DNA of 64,000 bases, taken from Azospirillaceae bacterium. GTDB taxonomy: Bacteria; Pseudomonadota; Alphaproteobacteria; Azospirillales; Azospirillaceae. Shown here piece after piece: positions 13,853 through 56,909 of the stretch. Position numbers and translations under genes: made by a program. The stretch spans positions 124,001 through 188,000 of the forward strand of contig DASQNC010000002.1 of assembly GCA_035645145.1 (NCBI GenBank), given 5' to 3'. Positions within the stretch are counted from its first letter, which is position 1. Each line of letters begins with the position of its first letter. Under the pieces are notes generated by a model. It searched no databases. It was not told the origin of the DNA and was given only the letters and a program-made list of their open reading frames with translations.

Positions 13853-14286
13853 GCCGCCGACGGCTTTGCGAGGGCCCGGGCATCTGCGCCCCGCGGCGTA
13901 TGCCGATGGCCGATTCAGACATAGGCGGGAAGACCGATTGTCTTACCGCAACAGTTAGTCGGCTAAATAAACATGCGGCTTTTTAAGCAAAGATCAACTG
14001 TGGTCCCGAGCTGATTGTTTTGGTTCGAACGTTGATATTGCGTTCTGTTCGGGAAAGAGTCATCGTTCTGTTGTTTGGTGAATCTTTCCAAGTGGCAGAG
14101 GACCACCCTGGAAGGATAGCCGCCATGGAAGTGTGTCGATTGCGCTTCCGTGGACGTGGCCTGCTGAGGTCGTTGGAGCAAAGCTGCGCTTCAGGTGCAC
14201 GGCATCGCTCAAGGGCTCCTGCCTCCATTAGTGCGGCAGGAGCCCCGGGCCTCATCCAAAACCAATGCAAGAATTGATGATGGATA
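13853..14286. other. A+T-richer intergenic leader before the orphan gene
   Basis: This 434-base stretch has noticeably lower G+C than its neighbours (runs such as ggctttttaagc, ttgttttgg) from about 13930 to 14120. It then returns to mixed composition. Short frames on both strands have no start signals or protein character. The only structure seen is the inverted repeat at 14213-14245, listed separately. It probably carries the promoter of the 14287 gene and may be the left edge of an acquired segment. Confidence 0.5.
14213..14245. repeat. Perfect 11-bp inverted repeat with 11-base loop
   Basis: GGGCTCCTGCC (14213-14223) and GGCAGGAGCCC (14235-14245) pair perfectly around 11 bases. No run of T follows on either strand, so it is not a typical intrinsic terminator. 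It ends 41 bases before the ATG of the orphan gene and could act in its leader RNA or as an operator. Confidence 0.6.
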
Positions 14287-37166: not shown

Positions 37167-37253
37167 GCCCCTGTGGCGGAACCGGTAGACGCGGCAGACT
37201 CAAAATCTGTTGCCCGGAAGGGCGTGGGAGTTCGAGTCTCCCCGGGGGCACCA
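37167..37253 (+). tRNA. tRNA-Leu (anticodon CAA)
   Basis: An 87-base type II tRNA. The acceptor arm gcccctg pairs with cgggggc before acca (one T-G pair), the anticodon loop ctcaaaa contains CAA, the long variable arm is tgcccggaagggcg, and the TpsiC arm gggagttcgagtctccc is canonical. The 3' CCA is encoded. It reads UUG leucine codons. It separates the dsbB operon from the regulator cluster; no duplicated 3' end was found nearby, so no integration site is called. Confidence 0.97.
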
Positions 37254-39188: not shown

Positions 39189-39279
39189 TCCGCAACCCGC
39201 TGCGGCACCGGTGTGGCGACACCGGTGCCGCAGCGGGTGGTCCGTTCACGTATCTTTTCGGGGATCCTGAAGCCGCGGC

Positions 39280-39486
39280 TCAATAGCCGTGGCGGAATCG
39301 CCCCAGCAGGCGGGCCAGCAGGCCCCGTTTGCCACGCTGCGGCTGTCGCGCGTCCACCAGCGTCGCGTGTGCCCGGGTCGTCGCCTTCCGGGCCATCCAC
39401 TGCTCCAACGTCATTCCGGCCTTGGCGGCACGGCGCGCCTCGTATTCGCGCTGTCCCTTCGACAGTTGCGCGACGGTGTCCTGCAC
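39280..39486 (-). CDS. Small basic hypothetical protein
   Basis: A 68-residue strongly basic protein (REYEARRAAKAGMTLEQWMARKATT) with a Lys/Arg-rich C-terminus ending LLGRFRHGY. No family is recognised; a nucleic acid- or membrane-binding role is possible from charge alone. GTG start at 39486 has CCGGAG nine bases upstream; ATG 39510 lacks a site. Confidence 0.55.
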   Translation of the reverse strand: MQDTVAQLSKGQREYEARRAAKAGMTLEQWMARKATTRAHATLVDARQPQRGKRGLLARLLGRFRHGY

Positions 39487-39659
39487 GTTTGGTCTCCGGA
39501 ATCCGGTCATTGATGGCGGAAGGTGGCGCTGCACCGGGGGCCTTGCAAGTGGGCCTCCGGGTATCCTGGCGGCCCGCACACGGCCCATCGTGGACCGGGA
39601 GGGACTCCCCTGCTAGGGTGCGCGCAATCTTGTCCGTAGCACAACCACAAGCGAGCGCG

Positions 39660-41114
39660 ATGGGCGCCATCGACGTCCGGCCGGTCCTGTACGTGATCGG
39701 CAGCATGCTGGGCATCATCGCCATCGCCATGCTGATCCCCATGGCGGCCGACCTCACGACCGGCCATCGGGATTGGCAGGCCTTTGCGGTCTCGGCATTG
39801 GTCACCTTGTTCTTCGGCGTATTGATCATGCTGACCAACCGCACACCGGGCGTGCGGTTGTCGCTCCGCCAAACCTTCCTCCTGACCACCCTCAGCTGGA
39901 TCGCGGTCTGCGTCTGTGCGGCGATCCCGTTCTCCTTCACCGAGGTCCGCCTCAGTTACACCGATGCGCTCTTCGAGGCGACGTCGGGTCTGACGTCGAC
40001 CGGGGCGACGGTGATCGCCGGCCTGGACACGGCGCCGGCCGGCATCCTGTTATGGCGTGCCTTGCTGAACTGGCTGGGCGGCATCGGAATCGTCGCACTC
40101 GGCATTGCCATCCTGCCGTTCCTGCGGGTCGGCGGAATGCAGCTTTTCAAGTCCGAGTCGTCGGACAAGTCGGAAAAGGTCCTTCCCCGCGCCGCCGACC
40201 TGGCGTTCGCACTGGGGTGGGTCTACCTGATTCTGACGCTGGCCTGCGCCGCCCTGCTGGCGCTGGCGGGCATGCCCATGTTCGATGCGGTCTGCCACGC
40301 CATGACGGCGCTTGCGACCGGCGGCTTTTCGACCCGCGATGCGTCCATCGGCGCCTACGGCAATCCGGCGGTGGAATGGATTGTGACGCTCTTCATGTAT
40401 CTCGGTGCGTTGCCGTTCGTGCGCTTCATCAGCTTCGCGCGCGGGGACTACCGGGCGATCTGGCAGGACAGTCAGGTTCGCCGTTTCACCTACATGCTGC
40501 TGGCGATCGGTGGCGGCCTGGGTCTGTGGGTCAGTGCCACCCAGGGGGTGTCCATACCGACCGGACTTCGTCTGGCGATGTTCAACGTGGTGTCCATCGT
40601 CACCACGACCGGCTTCGTGACGACGGACTACCAGCTCTGGGGGGCGCCGGCCGTCAGCCTGTTCTTCGTGCTGATGCTGCTGGGTGGATGCACCGGTTCC
40701 ACGTCCGGCGGCATCAAGATGTTCCGGCTTGAACTGTTGGCCCTGGTGCTGCGCCAGCAGGTGTCGCGCCTGTACACGCCACGGCGCGTCATGCCGCTGA
40801 CCTACAATGGAAAGCCGGTGGACACCGACATCTTGTTGTCGGCAACGGCGTTCGTGTTCGTCTATCTGGCCGCACTTTTGCTGATCGGCCTGGTTTTGGG
40901 GCTTATGGGGCTGGATCTGGTGACGGCAGTGACCGGCGCCACTATGGCGGTCGGCAACATCGGTCCGGGGCTGGGGGACATCATCGGTCCTGCCGGCAAC
41001 TTCTCCAGCCTGCCGGACGGGGTCAAATGGGTTCTGTCGTTCGGAATGCTGCTGGGACGGCTGGAACTGTTCACCGTCCTCGTGCTGCTGAGCCCGCGCT
41101 TCTGGCGCGCGTGA
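39660..41114 (+). CDS. trkH: Trk-type potassium uptake protein TrkH
   Basis: A 484-residue K+-translocating membrane subunit with four M1-P-M2-like repeats. The selectivity-filter loops appear as TSTGATVI, ATGGFSTRD, TTTGFVT and AVGNIGPG, each with the conserved Gly. It takes up potassium with the TrkA gating protein, which is not in this window. ATG 39660 begins with a weak ribosome-binding site. It is on the same strand as the XRE gene but 471 bases away. Confidence 0.95.
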   Translation: MGAIDVRPVLYVIGSMLGIIAIAMLIPMAADLTTGHRDWQAFAVSALVTLFFGVLIMLTNRTPGVRLSLRQTFLLTTLSWIAVCVCAAIPFSFTEVRLSYTDALFEATSGLTSTGATVIAGLDTAPAGILLWRALLNWLGGIGIVALGIAILPFLRVGGMQLFKSESSDKSEKVLPRAADLAFALGWVYLILTLACAALLALAGMPMFDAVCHAMTALATGGFSTRDASIGAYGNPAVEWIVTLFMYLGALPFVRFISFARGDYRAIWQDSQVRRFTYMLLAIGGGLGLWVSATQGVSIPTGLRLAMFNVVSIVTTTGFVTTDYQLWGAPAVSLFFVLMLLGGCTGSTSGGIKMFRLELLALVLRQQVSRLYTPRRVMPLTYNGKPVDTDILLSATAFVFVYLAALLLIGLVLGLMGLDLVTAVTGATMAVGNIGPGLGDIIGPAGNFSSLPDGVKWVLSFGMLLGRLELFTVLVLLSPRFWRA

Positions 41115-41320: not shown

Positions 41321-43996
41321 TCAGTCCGCGGCCTGCACCGGCGTTGCCGTGACCGGGCGGCGGCCCACCAGGGCCCGCCAATCCGGCACCGCGTTGATCA
41401 TCGATGTCACCAGCGCGGCCAAGTAGGGCAGGGACTGCACCAGCAGCAGCGCGATCCACAGGAACGCGTCCCGGTTCTCCTTGCCGTAGCCGATGAACAG
41501 GGCCGCCGCCGCGGTCCACAGGCCGCTCATCAGCATCAGTTCCTCGCGGGCGCCCAGGATGCCCTGGATCAGCGCCGGCTTGTCCGCGCACTTCGGGGTG
41601 CGGAAGAACGGCCGGCCGCTGGTGAAGATGCCCTGCCAGATGGCCCGGCCCACGGTGTGGGTCAACGCCATGCCGGCCACCGCCGCGCCGAACCGGCCGC
41701 CCCAGCCGCACGGCACGCGGCTGGCGTAAAGCCAGAACCCGGCGACGACCTTGAACGTGAAGGCGGCGACCATCGGGATCATGAACGTGGTCGGCGGGAA
41801 CTCGAACAGGTGGCTGAGCGGGCCCAGGCCGATCTGGTTCACCCAGGCGCGGCCGTAGATTTCGCCCAACCAGATGGCAATCGGCTGCAGCATCAGGCCG
41901 AAGGACCAGAAGATCGCGGCGGTGGCGAACACCAGATGCGCGGCGTCCGCGAACCAGGGCATCCAGCCGGCGATGAAATGGTACTTCTGCTCGCCGTTCA
42001 GCTTGCGCGCACCGGGCAGGAACTCCCGGAAGTGCTTTTTCATGATCTGAACCGAGCCGTAGGCCCAGCGGAAGCGCTGCTTCTTGTAGGCCTCGAAGCT
42101 GTCGGGGACCACGCCCTTGCCGAAGCTGTCGGGCATGTAGACCGCCTCGTAGCCGGCCTCGAACAGGCGCAGGCCCAGCTCGGCATCCTCGGTGATGCAC
42201 CATTCCGCCCAGCGGCCGACCTCGTCCAGCGCCGACTTGCGGATGATGGTCATCGTGCCGTGCTGGATGATGGCGTTCCGCTCGTTGCGCTGGAGCATGC
42301 CGATGTGGAAGAAGCCGGCATACTCCCAGTTCAGCATGGTCTGGAAGGTGTCGCCCTCGTAGTCGCGGTAGTCCTGCGGCGACTGGACGAAGCCCACCTC
42401 CTTGCGGTCGAAATAGGGGACCGTGCTCGACAGCCAGTCCGGGCGGACCTGGTAGTCGCTGTCGATGACCGCGATCAGTTCGGCATCGGGAGCCGTCTGG
42501 TCGAGGCCGAAGTTGAGCGCACCGGCCTTGAAGCCCGGCCAGCTCGGCAGGTGGAAGAAGCGGAACCGCGGACCCAGCTGCTGGCAGTAGGCCTCGACCG
42601 GCTTCCAGATCGCCTCGTCCTTGGTGTTGTTGTCGATCAGCAGGACTTCGAAGTTCGGGTAGTCGAGCTTCGCCAGCGAGTCCAGGGTCTGCATGACCAT
42701 GTGCGGCGGCTCGTTGTAGCAGGGCACATGGATCGAAACCTTGGGCGCGTACGGCGAGGCCGGGGCCTTCACCGGGTAGAAGCGGCGGCGCCAGCGGTTG
42801 GCCCACACCACCTCGGTCAGCTCCATGCCGTCGGTCAGCAGCAGCGCCAGCAGCACGAGCTGCAGGCCGATCATCACCGTCCAGACCAGGTGCGTGGACG
42901 TGGCAAGGCCGGGCTGCATCCAGTCCAGCACGGTCCACAGCAGCATGTTCACGGTGGACTGGATCAGGGCGCCGTAGAACACGAGGCCGCCCAGCTTGAG
43001 GTCGCGGCGGTACCAGACCACCAGCAGGATGGGCAGGGTCGCGATGGCCGAGGCGATACCGGCCAGGACCGGCCAGTTGGCGACCTCGAGGATCTCGCCC
43101 TCCATCGGGAACTTCGGCTGGCGCCACGCGTCCCAGATGCCCCAGGTCACGCCGGCGGTGCCTTCGAGCGTCCGCTTCCAGGGCTGGTCGAAGGCTTCCA
43201 TGATGTAGTAGTCGATGCGGTTCTGGCTGGCGACGTTGAACCACTGGCGCAGGAACTTCGCCTGGTTCACCACCGACGCCTCGGCGGCACGGCGCCACGG
43301 GCCGTCCGACGGCCAGCCGATCTCGCTGACCAGGATGTGCTTGTTCGGGTACTTCTGGCGCAGCTCGTTGTACCGGAACATGGCGTAGTCGACCGCCTCG
43401 TCGACCGGCACACCTTCCCAGTAGGGGAGCAGGTGGACGGCGATGTAGTCCACGGCTGCCACCAGTTCGGGGTGGTCCAACCAGACGTGCCAGGGCTCCG
43501 CGGTCGAGACCGGGACGTTCACCTGGCGGCGCACCCGCTGGATGTATTCGATGGCCTGCGGGACCGTGACGTCGGTGCGCAGGATCGCCTCGTTGCCGAC
43601 GATGACGCGGCGCACGTTGGGGTTGGCGCGCGTCAGGCGGACGAGGTTCGCGATCTCGGGTTCGTCGATCTCGGGCTTGCCCTGGATCCAGGCGCCCATG
43701 GTCACGGTCAGGCCGTGGGTGCGGGCGACCGACGGCACCAGGTCGGCGTTGTTCTGGGTCGAATAGGTGCGCACGCCGTTCACATGGCCGCGCAACAGCT
43801 CCAGGTCGCCCTCGATGTCCTTGGCGCTCGGATGCTTGTTCTCGAGCGGGCTCTGGTCGGCCTTGTAGGGGCTGTATCCCACGCCGTTGATCGTACCGGC
43901 CCAGGGCCGTTCCGATTGGGGCCGGTTGGTCAGCGCCCAGAACCCGAGGTTCCCGAGCAGCACCAGAAGTAGAACCGCAACTGCCGTTCTGCGCAT
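41321..43996 (-). CDS. ndvB: GH17-GT2 fused glucan synthase (NdvB-like beta-1,3-glucan synthase)
   Basis: An 891-residue membrane protein. After an N-terminal anchor (about 5-22) comes a glycoside hydrolase 17-like periplasmic domain (about 34-290, VSEIGWPSDG, RYNELRQKYP). Then come helices and a family-2 glycosyltransferase (about 420-660) with DSD in VIDSDYQV, TED in ITEDAELG and KQRFRWAYG, the QxxRW equivalent. A long membrane tail follows. Relatives make periplasmic or capsular beta-1,3/1,6-glucans, as in Bradyrhizobium; the GH17 part may transglycosylate or ring-close the product. The symbol is by similarity only. Confidence 0.88.
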   Translation of the reverse strand: MRRTAVAVLLLVLLGNLGFWALTNRPQSERPWAGTINGVGYSPYKADQSPLENKHPSAKDIEGDLELLRGHVNGVRTYSTQNNADLVPSVARTHGLTVTMGAWIQGKPEIDEPEIANLVRLTRANPNVRRVIVGNEAILRTDVTVPQAIEYIQRVRRQVNVPVSTAEPWHVWLDHPELVAAVDYIAVHLLPYWEGVPVDEAVDYAMFRYNELRQKYPNKHILVSEIGWPSDGPWRRAAEASVVNQAKFLRQWFNVASQNRIDYYIMEAFDQPWKRTLEGTAGVTWGIWDAWRQPKFPMEGEILEVANWPVLAGIASAIATLPILLVVWYRRDLKLGGLVFYGALIQSTVNMLLWTVLDWMQPGLATSTHLVWTVMIGLQLVLLALLLTDGMELTEVVWANRWRRRFYPVKAPASPYAPKVSIHVPCYNEPPHMVMQTLDSLAKLDYPNFEVLLIDNNTKDEAIWKPVEAYCQQLGPRFRFFHLPSWPGFKAGALNFGLDQTAPDAELIAVIDSDYQVRPDWLSSTVPYFDRKEVGFVQSPQDYRDYEGDTFQTMLNWEYAGFFHIGMLQRNERNAIIQHGTMTIIRKSALDEVGRWAEWCITEDAELGLRLFEAGYEAVYMPDSFGKGVVPDSFEAYKKQRFRWAYGSVQIMKKHFREFLPGARKLNGEQKYHFIAGWMPWFADAAHLVFATAAIFWSFGLMLQPIAIWLGEIYGRAWVNQIGLGPLSHLFEFPPTTFMIPMVAAFTFKVVAGFWLYASRVPCGWGGRFGAAVAGMALTHTVGRAIWQGIFTSGRPFFRTPKCADKPALIQGILGAREELMLMSGLWTAAAALFIGYGKENRDAFLWIALLLVQSLPYLAALVTSMINAVPDWRALVGRRPVTATPVQAAD

Positions 43997-44367
43997 GGTC
44001 TTTCTTTCGTTTCCTCGTGCCCGTCGCAACCGGCGTCAGGCACACGCGGAGAGAGCATCCGACCCCAAGAACCGGACTGAAACCGACTGGATGAACGATG
44101 AAGTCCCGCTTAGACGACCTGGCCCGCGCCGTTCTGCCCGTTGGGCGCCCCATTGGTTACGCAACCTGCCGGTCACGCCGCCTGATGGTTGCCACGTCCG
44201 GGCACGATACGCGCAAGAGGCACCTGATAAGCGTCAAAAACCCCCGTTTCGTCCAGTGGAATGTTGAATGTTTCTCGAAAATTCTCTGGGACTGCCCTCG
44301 CGTCCTAATGAACGCGGCGGCCTGTGAACTATTCCCGACCTGTTCCGACGATCCGCAGGAATCGCGC

Positions 44368-44519
44368 CCTCCCGTTGGGAGGTGTTTGGTCCCTGCGTCC
44401 TTGGGTTACTCAGACCGGAGCGGGAACACCGGCGCGCGCAGGTGGTTCCGATCTCTGCCTACCGGCAGAGCGTGCGTGCGAATGTCGCACCTCGGTTAAG
44501 GCCGAGGAGTTGCCTCCTC
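44368..44519. ncRNA. Candidate structured RNA: cluster of perfect hairpins
   Basis: Within ~150 bases lie several perfect stem-loops: CCTCCC-gtt-GGGAGG (44368-44382), CTCTGCC-tacc-GGCAGAG (44453-44470), GTGCGA-atg-TCGCAC (44476-44490) and CTCGG-(ttaagg)-CCGAG (44491-44506). A further one, GAGGAG-ttgc-CTCCTC (44504-44519), overlaps the previous stem and would exclude it. CCTGCG/CGCAGG also closes an outer arm around 44392-44440. I do not recognise a known RNA family, and strand is uncertain. Confidence 0.4.
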
Positions 44520-44556
44520 CACCACCTGCACGTGGGAATCCTTGGGGCCAAAAAGA

Positions 44557-44590
44557 AACGGCGACCGCACCGGATGATGCGGTCGCCGTT
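44557..44590 (-). terminator. Intrinsic terminator of typA
   Basis: A 13-bp perfect stem (AACGGCGACCGCA / TGCGGTCGCCGTT) with an 8-base loop, followed on the minus strand by TTTCTTTTTGG. It lies 42 bases past the typA stop. A typical Rho-independent terminator. Confidence 0.85.
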
Positions 44591-44631
44591 CCATCAAAAC
44601 CGCCGCGGCGTGCGGCCGTTGCCGTGGATCG

Positions 44632-46455
44632 TCAGCTGGCGGCGGCCTGGCGGTCGGCCTTCTTGCGCTCGTTCGGGTCGAGCAGCTTCTTGCGCAAGCG
44701 GATGGACTTGGGCGTGACCTCCACCAGCTCGTCGTCGGCGATGTAGGACAACGCCTTTTCCAGCGTCATCCGGATCGGCGGAGTCAGGCGCACCGCGTCG
44801 TCCTTGCCGGCGGCGCGGATGTTGGTCAGCTGCTTGCCTTTCAGCACGTTGACTTCCAGGTCGTTCCCGCGGCTGTGCTCGCCCACGATCATGCCCTGGT
44901 AAACCTTCCAGCCCGGCTCGATCATCATGGGGCCGCGGTCTTCCAGGTTCCACAGCGCGTAGGCCACCGCCTCGCCGTCGCCGTTGGAGATCAGCATCCC
45001 GTTCCGGCGGGCCGCGATCGTGCCCTTGAACGGCGCGTAGCTGTGGAAGATCCGGTTCAGCACGCCGGTGCCGCGCGTGTCAGTCAGGAACTCCGACTGG
45101 TAGCCGATCAGGCCGCGTGACGGCATCAGGAACACCAGGCGCAGCTTGCCGCCCCCCGACGGGCGCATCTCCAGCATCTCGCCCTTGCGCTCCTGGAGCT
45201 TTTGCACCACGACGCCCGAGTATTCCTCGTCGACGTCGATGGTGACCTCCTCCATCGGCTCCAGCTTCTGGCCGGTCTCGGAATCGGTCTTCAGCAGCAC
45301 CCGCGGGCGCGAGATCGAAAGCTCGAAACCCTCGCGGCGCATGGTCTCGATCAGGATGCCGAGCTGCAGCTCACCACGGCCCGCCACCTCGAAGCTGTCC
45401 TTGTCGTCGCTCTCGGTGATGCGGATGGCCACGTTCCCCTCGGCCTCGCGCAGCAGGCGGTCGCGGATGACGCGGCTGGTCACCTTGTCCCCCTCGGTGC
45501 CGGCCAGCGGGCTGTCGTTGACCAGGAAGGTCATGGCGATGGTCGGCGGGTCGATCGGCTGCGCCTTCAGCGGCTGCTCGAGCGAGGTGTCGCACAGGGT
45601 GTCGGCCACGGTCGCCTTGGTGAAGCCCGCCAGCGCCACGATGTCGCCGGCCTCGGCCTCCTCGACGGGGACGCGATCGACCCCGCGGAAGGCCAGCACC
45701 TTGGTCACGCGGGTCTGTTCGACGACGGTGCCGTCCGGGCTGAGGGACTTCACGACCATGTTCGACTTGACCCGGCCGGACTGGATGCGGCCGGTCAGCA
45801 GGCGACCCAGGTAGGGGTTGGCCTCCAGCGTCGTCGCCAGCATGGCGAAGGTGCCCTCCGGGTCCACCTTCGGCGCCGGCACGTGGCGCTTGATCAGCTC
45901 GAACAGCGGGGTCAGGTCCTTGTGCGGGCCGTCCACGGTCTCCGACGCCCAGCCCTGGCGGCCCGAGGCGAACAGCGTCGGGAAGTCCAGCTGCTCCTCG
46001 TTCGCGTCCATCGAGGCGAACAGGTCGAAGATCTCGTCGTGCACCTCGTGGGCGCGCGCGTCCGGACGGTCCACCTTGTTGATCAGGACGATGGGCCGCA
46101 GGCCCAGCTTCAGGGCCTTGCCCAGCACGAACTTGGTCTGCGGCAGCGGGCCTTCGGCCGCATCCACCAGCAGGACGACGCCGTCCACCATGCTCATGAT
46201 GCGCTCGACCTCGCCCCCGAAGTCGGCGTGGCCCGGGGTGTCGACGATGTTGATGCGCAGGCCGTTCCACTCGACCGAGGTGCACTTCGCCAGGATGGTG
46301 ATGCCGCGCTCGCGCTCCAGGTCGTTGGAGTCCATCACGCGCTCTGCAACCTGCTGGTTCTCGCGGAACGCGCCGGATTGCTTGAGGAGCTGGTCGACGA
46401 GAGTGGTTTTGCCGTGGTCGACGTGCGCGATGATCGCGACGTTGCGGATGTCCAT
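44632..46455 (-). CDS. typA: Translational GTPase TypA/BipA
   Basis: A 607-residue ribosome-binding GTPase needed for 50S assembly and stress or cold adaptation. G1 is AHVDHGKTT (residues 9-17), G2 and G3 appear as RGITIL and DTPGHADF, G4 is NKVD. Domains II-V and the unique C-terminal domain (GRGELQLGILIETMRREGFEL, then RLRKKLLDPNERKK) are present. The start at 46455 is set by AAGGCAGGAC just upstream and by the MDIRNVAIIAHVDHG start. It is divergent from tamA. Confidence 0.97.
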   Translation of the reverse strand: MDIRNVAIIAHVDHGKTTLVDQLLKQSGAFRENQQVAERVMDSNDLERERGITILAKCTSVEWNGLRINIVDTPGHADFGGEVERIMSMVDGVVLLVDAAEGPLPQTKFVLGKALKLGLRPIVLINKVDRPDARAHEVHDEIFDLFASMDANEEQLDFPTLFASGRQGWASETVDGPHKDLTPLFELIKRHVPAPKVDPEGTFAMLATTLEANPYLGRLLTGRIQSGRVKSNMVVKSLSPDGTVVEQTRVTKVLAFRGVDRVPVEEAEAGDIVALAGFTKATVADTLCDTSLEQPLKAQPIDPPTIAMTFLVNDSPLAGTEGDKVTSRVIRDRLLREAEGNVAIRITESDDKDSFEVAGRGELQLGILIETMRREGFELSISRPRVLLKTDSETGQKLEPMEEVTIDVDEEYSGVVVQKLQERKGEMLEMRPSGGGKLRLVFLMPSRGLIGYQSEFLTDTRGTGVLNRIFHSYAPFKGTIAARRNGMLISNGDGEAVAYALWNLEDRGPMMIEPGWKVYQGMIVGEHSRGNDLEVNVLKGKQLTNIRAAGKDDAVRLTPPIRMTLEKALSYIADDELVEVTPKSIRLRKKLLDPNERKKADRQAAAS

Positions 46456-46726
46456 TGTCCTGCCTTCAGTAGACTGGGCCGTGTCGTGGCCGGGCTTCCG
46501 TTGCCCGCCTCCGGGCCGGAGCCGTTCGTGTTGCGGTGCAGCAACGCGAGCGGCCGCGCTTAAGTAGGGTGTCGGGATGCGCCATTGCAAGGTCACCGTT
46601 TCGATGTTCGTCCCGGCAACCCCGGCACCTCCGCCGCGTTCAATGTCGGACCGTATGCCGGAATAAGGTTACGTTCTCGTGAATGTGCCGCCAGGGCCGG
46701 GATCGCATCGGGGGACGGAATAGGGG

Positions 46727-55772: not shown

Positions 55773-56909
55773 TTAACCGGGCTTTGAGTCCGCCTTTTTG
55801 ATGGTTTCCCTAAGGATGACCTCCAGCGGAGTCACCGGGCCATCATCTGCGATGAGGCCCGTTGCAGCAGGTCGGTATAGTGCGTTGAGTATGGGGCCGA
55901 ACTCGCCACCTGCTAAGCCGGCAGCTTGGAGTGCTGCAAATGTTTCAACCATTGTTACCCTTTCTGCTGCATCTTCCGCCAAGTGCTCATGAGAAAGAGC
56001 TTTCTTTAGTTCTTGTCGTAGTAACCATATGCCGAGGCCGGCAATTGTGCCTAAAATTAATGTATGCTGAAGAAGTTTGCCGATTAAAGGTGGTGTGGGT
56101 GAGGCGATTGCAGGTGTATGTGCTTCGGTTATTCCAATGAATGACGCAATATTTGTTGCGTACCAATCAGGTAAGCCGGCGAGTATCAAGGGGGAGAGCA
56201 GCATGAAGCCGATTGTTTCCGTGATCAGCAACATGTTCCACGCTCTCCTAGACTTTACGGCTAAGTTTTTATGATGCTCTCTTCTTTGTTTCCAGTATTC
56301 GGTCGGGGCTGAAAGGGCGGCCTTCATTACAAATGTACTTACCTTTTCGTCCCAATCTTTTTCGGCCTTATCGTATAATTGTTCGAATTTCCTAAGAAGG
56401 CCAAAGATATTTTTTGAAGATTTTTTAGATTCTTTAATGGCCGCATAAATTTTTTCCCTGTCCCCAAGTGGGTCGCCCACTGCTAGAAATGCTACCGCTG
56501 CAATGCGCCCTAGGTCCGCCTCCTGGTTGTTCATATTTATCTGAGTTGGGGAAATTTTCCCGGAAATAATGCCGGCTGCATAAACCGCGGCGCTCGGTTT
56601 TGTAAATGAAAGTAGGCGAGAAATAAACCGTCCTTTTTCTGTTCCAATAAAAACCATACCAGAATTTGAGCATAATTTAAGTTTTGATAGTATCGAGTCA
56701 TAATTATCTGTTGGCTCTATCTCTAAAAATTGACGAATTGCATCTTTGAAACAATGGTTAAATTCAGAGGAGCTGGACAGTTTATTGATCAGGATTCTCT
56801 GTTCTTTAAACCATGCCCAAAGCTTCTCTTCTGTTTCAAATGCAATATTTGACCCATCGTCATTGGTGAGTAATAGGGGAAAGCTTTCAGGAGATTTTGG
56901 CTTTTCCAT
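55773..56909 (-). CDS. A+T-rich hypothetical membrane protein (DUF6161-like)
   Basis: A 378-residue protein, markedly lower in G+C (about 42% by eye) than all its neighbours, so likely acquired. The N-terminal 200 residues are soluble and mixed alpha/beta; YWKQRREHHKNLAVKSRRAW (about 230-250) leads into two transmembrane segments (about 252-275 and 305-325). A C-terminal soluble helix-rich region (LAEDAAERVTMVETFAALQ) has the style of DUF6161 proteins. No catalytic motif is evident. ATG 56909 with an A+T-rich leader; the frame upstream to 57059 lacks homology. A role in defence is possible but unproven. Confidence 0.7.
   Translation of the reverse strand: MEKPKSPESFPLLLTNDDGSNIAFETEEKLWAWFKEQRILINKLSSSSEFNHCFKDAIRQFLEIEPTDNYDSILSKLKLCSNSGMVFIGTEKGRFISRLLSFTKPSAAVYAAGIISGKISPTQINMNNQEADLGRIAAVAFLAVGDPLGDREKIYAAIKESKKSSKNIFGLLRKFEQLYDKAEKDWDEKVSTFVMKAALSAPTEYWKQRREHHKNLAVKSRRAWNMLLITETIGFMLLSPLILAGLPDWYATNIASFIGITEAHTPAIASPTPPLIGKLLQHTLILGTIAGLGIWLLRQELKKALSHEHLAEDAAERVTMVETFAALQAAGLAGGEFGPILNALYRPAATGLIADDGPVTPLEVILRETIKKADSKPG

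Follow-up and report, generated by a model that had tools for sequence, protein, structure and literature searches.

The gap between typA and the glucan synthase gene

The window, meaning the whole 64-kb stretch of DNA analysed here (G+C 68%), belongs to a genome of 3.89 Mb and contains two minus-strand genes separated by a gap of 635 nt (43997-44631), which extends from the stop of typA (44632) to the ATG of a glucan synthase gene (43996). The upstream gene, typA/bipA, encodes a translational GTPase and is identified by TIGR01394 TypA_BipA (943.6 bits, above the cut-off) together with Pfam GTP_EFTU and BipA_C matches; its listed open frame occupies 44632-46596, with the conserved part beginning further in. 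The downstream gene (41321-43996) encodes a glucan synthase-like protein that, based on Pfam, is composed of a GH17-like part and a GT2 glycosyltransferase; the GT2 domain is present, the GH17-like stretch scores 25.4 bits, below the Pfam cut-off of 28.2, and no NCBIfam equivalog is found above its cut-off.

Behind typA, a terminator scan locates an intrinsic terminator at 44555-44592 (minus strand, read from 44592 to 44555), in which 17 pairs, including a 13-bp perfect stem, are followed by a T-rich tail; this element is not mentioned in the earlier note on this DNA. Beyond the folded domain described below, the sole terminator-like site on the minus strand falls within the beginning of the glucan synthase gene. 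A promoter scan confined to the sigma-70-like type found none in 43900-44700, and the four plus-strand frames tested across the gap have no Pfam match. When the window was scanned with Rfam 15 at the gathering score, only a tRNA at 37167-37250 was returned and nothing on the hairpin cluster; similarly, ARAGORN (tRNA/tmRNA) reports only a tRNA-Leu at 37167-37253 and none over the cluster.

Hairpins and a closed multibranch domain

Five perfect hairpins, described here for the minus strand, lie within 44368-44519, i.e., H1 (44368-44382, 6 bp), H2 (44453-44470, 7 bp), H3 (44476-44490, 6 bp), H4 (44490-44507, 6 bp), and H5 (44504-44519, 6 bp). H1 sits within a longer, interrupted stem as its inner part, and H4 and H5 overlap at 44504-44507, so that a complete H4 excludes a complete H5. 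The five hairpins, the 635-base gap without genes upstream of the glucan synthase, the mutual exclusion of the last two stems, and the structured character of the segment had all been put forward in the earlier note; all were recovered, the last of them through a closing stem, folding z-scores, and the clustering of the hairpins relative to shuffles. Dinucleotide shuffling of the 152-nt stretch never produced five hairpins (0 of 5000; mean 0.23, maximum 3), and shuffling of the whole 635-nt gap produced a five-hairpin cluster in 160 nt once in 1000 trials. From this gap-level rate, about 0.1 such cluster is estimated per 64-kb window, given that the stretch was chosen out of 64 kb; with that choice allowed for, the hairpin count alone is unusual, not extreme. 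Within the window, 44368-44519 is the only place with five hairpins, and four occur at two others.

Because perfect palindromes are readable as DNA too, the cluster could instead consist of binding sites for proteins ahead of the glucan synthase promoter, to which an additional 20-nt imperfect palindrome across 44418-44453 might be counted. This DNA-level reading is very unlikely, however, since the palindrome sequences differ among themselves, whereas repeated sites for a single protein would be alike, and the stress-sigma-like site at 44423-44447 is one of four in the window, where at least four are found in 9 of 100 shuffles.

An inverted repeat that is absent from the earlier note pairs 44435-44446 with 44521-44532 in a 12-pair closing stem, by which H2-H5 are enclosed in a multibranch domain on the minus strand (44435-44532), with H1 lying outside. 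Folding of 44430-44540 yields -57.4 kcal/mol (z -5.58) for the minus strand and -54.3 kcal/mol (z -4.38) for the plus strand, and the predicted pairing of the closing stem on the minus strand is 0.82-0.99 in 44330-44550 and 0.67-0.82 across the whole gap. A minus-strand RNA is favoured because one closing-stem position pairs only on that strand, being U.G on the minus strand and C.A on the plus strand. The loop of H5 reads GCAA (GNRA type) on minus, and this too would speak for RNA from the minus strand, although both are single features.

Two non-overlapping 110-nt windows, 39191-39300 plus and 14151-14260 minus, have a lower dinucleotide-corrected energy than 44431-44540 minus, which comes third when both strands are ranked; thus, the energy alone is not unique. 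In 180-nt windows with a G+C correction, 44441-44620 minus ranks first, but the typA terminator is included in it. As separate observations on the window, 39191-39300 plus has the lowest dinucleotide-corrected 110-nt folding energy (-71.6 kcal/mol), lies near the start of a listed open frame (39213-41114), and has no Rfam match at the gathering score; 14081-14260 folds strongly and has a G+C of 0.56-0.61 in 180-nt windows, which is low for the window; and 56641-56860 is likewise low in G+C (0.33-0.36 in 180-nt windows, compared with 68% for the window).

The earlier note had proposed a switching leader, which would act in cis from within the 5' untranslated region of the mRNA for the glucan synthase; this reading draws on the position of the cluster upstream of that gene on the same strand and on the mutual exclusion of H4 and H5. 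On the minus strand, however, H5 is paired at 0.88-0.97 and H4 at no more than 0.36, and forcing H4 costs 5.9 kcal/mol (-57.4 kcal/mol with H5 versus -51.5 with H4); with the H5 conformer dominant by about 6 kcal/mol, a minus-strand leader does not look bistable. The two are closer on the plus strand, where H5 is paired at 0.53-0.82 and H4 at 0.01-0.93, depending on the pair. Moreover, about 370 nt separate the end of the cluster from the start codon, and a sister species is without the cluster while retaining the glucan synthase gene and, next to it, a part of the gap that can be weakly aligned; only the gene-proximal 344 nt (43997-44340) align with the sister gap beyond chance (score reached by 1.3% of shuffles). 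The proposal of a switching leader is accordingly not borne out, and a leader of the glucan synthase is distinctly unlikely.

Distribution among relatives

The only other genome of this genus, G052, represents the sister species and likewise has typA and the synthase side by side. In a BLAST comparison of the two genomes, the coding parts are joined and the gap is not, and the distance from the terminator to the first weakly alignable block is 38 nt in G052 versus 214 nt here (44336-44549, minus strand), i.e., about 176 nt shorter. The cluster and the closed domain align with the sister gap no better than chance, the scores being reached by 0.64 and 0.77 of shuffles. Two genomes would not by themselves tell a gain here from a loss in G052.

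A covariance model built from the single sequence, which was run with stricter filters in the large searches and could therefore miss distant relatives of the fold, found a single copy among the 82 genomes of the family, in the own genome, and none in the 81 others. A DNA search agrees (1 of 82), and the search at the order level returned the identical 82 genomes. A looser family search with 221 nt of DNA (E up to 0.1) matched 28 of the 82, with only short pieces at E of at least 0.0015 beyond the own copy. In the class sample, 3 of 385 genomes match the covariance model at E up to 0.5, and in the phylum sample, 3 of 398 match by DNA at E up to 0.001, the own genome being included in both; the four foreign matches (two class and two phylum genomes) were rejected as homologues, because they overlap long reading frames and are at chance level for 385 and 398 genomes. 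A REP/MITE-type repeat was likewise rejected, as the segment is single-copy in its own genome by DNA (next best E 0.65) and by the covariance model.

The closest glucan synthases from named relatives belong to Rhodospirillales MAGs, Azospirillum, and Nitrospirillum. Among 80 relatives' loci, two were matched by cmsearch, each at E 4.1; typA is upstream in 11 of the 35 loci checked, and the hairpins counted upstream in 15 of the 80 number 0 to 5 per 700 nt, none being clustered comparably, with the five of the sister locus spread across about 350 nt. The typA frame of loci L070, L072, L073, L075, L076, and L078 (genus g10) is reported at 608 aa with one TAG within the match. The window aligned with 8 upstream regions reveals no clear common leader. 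The plasmid search returned a single 28-nt match at E 0.5 and the phage search none; a G-rich viral pattern of 17 nt matched at least 120 stretches and is uninformative, and one of 25 nt had no match. No homologue in which compensatory changes might be sought was found, and since no searched relative carries the cluster, it is not demonstrably a conserved regulatory RNA.

This distribution would also fit a non-functional relic, left in one lineage by an insertion or by turnover of the local sequence, in which template switching would have made the short perfect inverted repeats; it would have been tolerated because of its place between the terminator and the upstream region of the next gene. 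Such a relic, the nearest rival, is possible but doubtful: the 38 nt of the sister species, the chance-level alignment to its gap, and the lack of similarity beyond chance in any search are as expected of it, whereas it would be unusual for chance to produce five perfect stems together with a closing stem of 12 pairs, and without a second copy there is no identifiable mobile element.

Interpretation and comparison with known systems

Taken together, the cluster appears to be a lineage-specific structured intergenic segment and at most a candidate for an orphan small RNA. The preferred reading, to which a probability of roughly 0.4 is given, is a stable minus-strand RNA domain, either an orphan small RNA or a read-through tail of typA. 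Accordingly conceived, a single-copy segment of roughly 180-210 nt directly behind the typA terminator would fold on the minus strand into a closed multibranch domain, in which the 12-pair stem surrounds three or four short hairpins, with a further hairpin coming after it; if active, it would most likely work as an orphan small RNA or as a tail that stabilises transcripts reading through the terminator. Counted for this RNA reading are the clustering beyond shuffles, the z of -5.6 on minus versus -4.4 on plus, the single copy, the closing-stem position and GCAA loop of the minus strand, the plus-strand frames without Pfam match, and the location on the strand of the typA terminator and behind it. 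Counted against it are the lack of a homologue and hence of covariation, the typA terminator that stands before the domain, the lack of a sigma-70-like promoter and of a terminator right behind the domain, a strand asymmetry that amounts to one base pair and one loop, and the two 110-nt windows that fold better after correction. The narrower version, a species-specific multibranch RNA whose fold has no known relatives and which would arise as a discrete small RNA encoded behind typA, is unlikely. Should the segment prove to be transcribed, it would add to the orphan structured RNAs of recent origin and could help in studying the emergence of new RNAs between bacterial genes.

No family had been recognised in the earlier note, which proposed an Rfam scan, and that scan likewise found no match on the cluster; with relaxed thresholds on the gap, the best hit is Xoo2 (24 bits versus 45), located on the typA terminator and not on the cluster. 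Riboswitch and attenuator leaders share with the locus the presence, ahead of a gene, of stems that exclude each other; they differ in that the cluster has no family match, one dominant conformer, a distant start codon, and no counterpart in the sister species. Retron non-coding RNAs likewise have an inverted repeat of about 12 nt that closes a set of hairpins, but a retron was rejected here, as the reverse transcriptase model PF00078 has 0 matches in the whole own genome.

The nearest likeness in the same bacterial family is found in the orphan intergenic small RNAs of Azospirillum brasilense Sp245, which also lack an Rfam homologue (PMC7685610); the main text of that paper contains none of the words typA, bipA, and glucan, and no paper on typA and small RNA in Rhodospirillales was found. 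The Sp245 small RNAs were seen as transcripts, whereas the present candidate is a prediction from sequence. As 53 of the 59 small RNAs reported for Sp245 have no homologue in Rfam or BSRD, an orphan candidate is unremarkable in this family, and the cluster stands as such a candidate rather than a pointer to a new kind of system.
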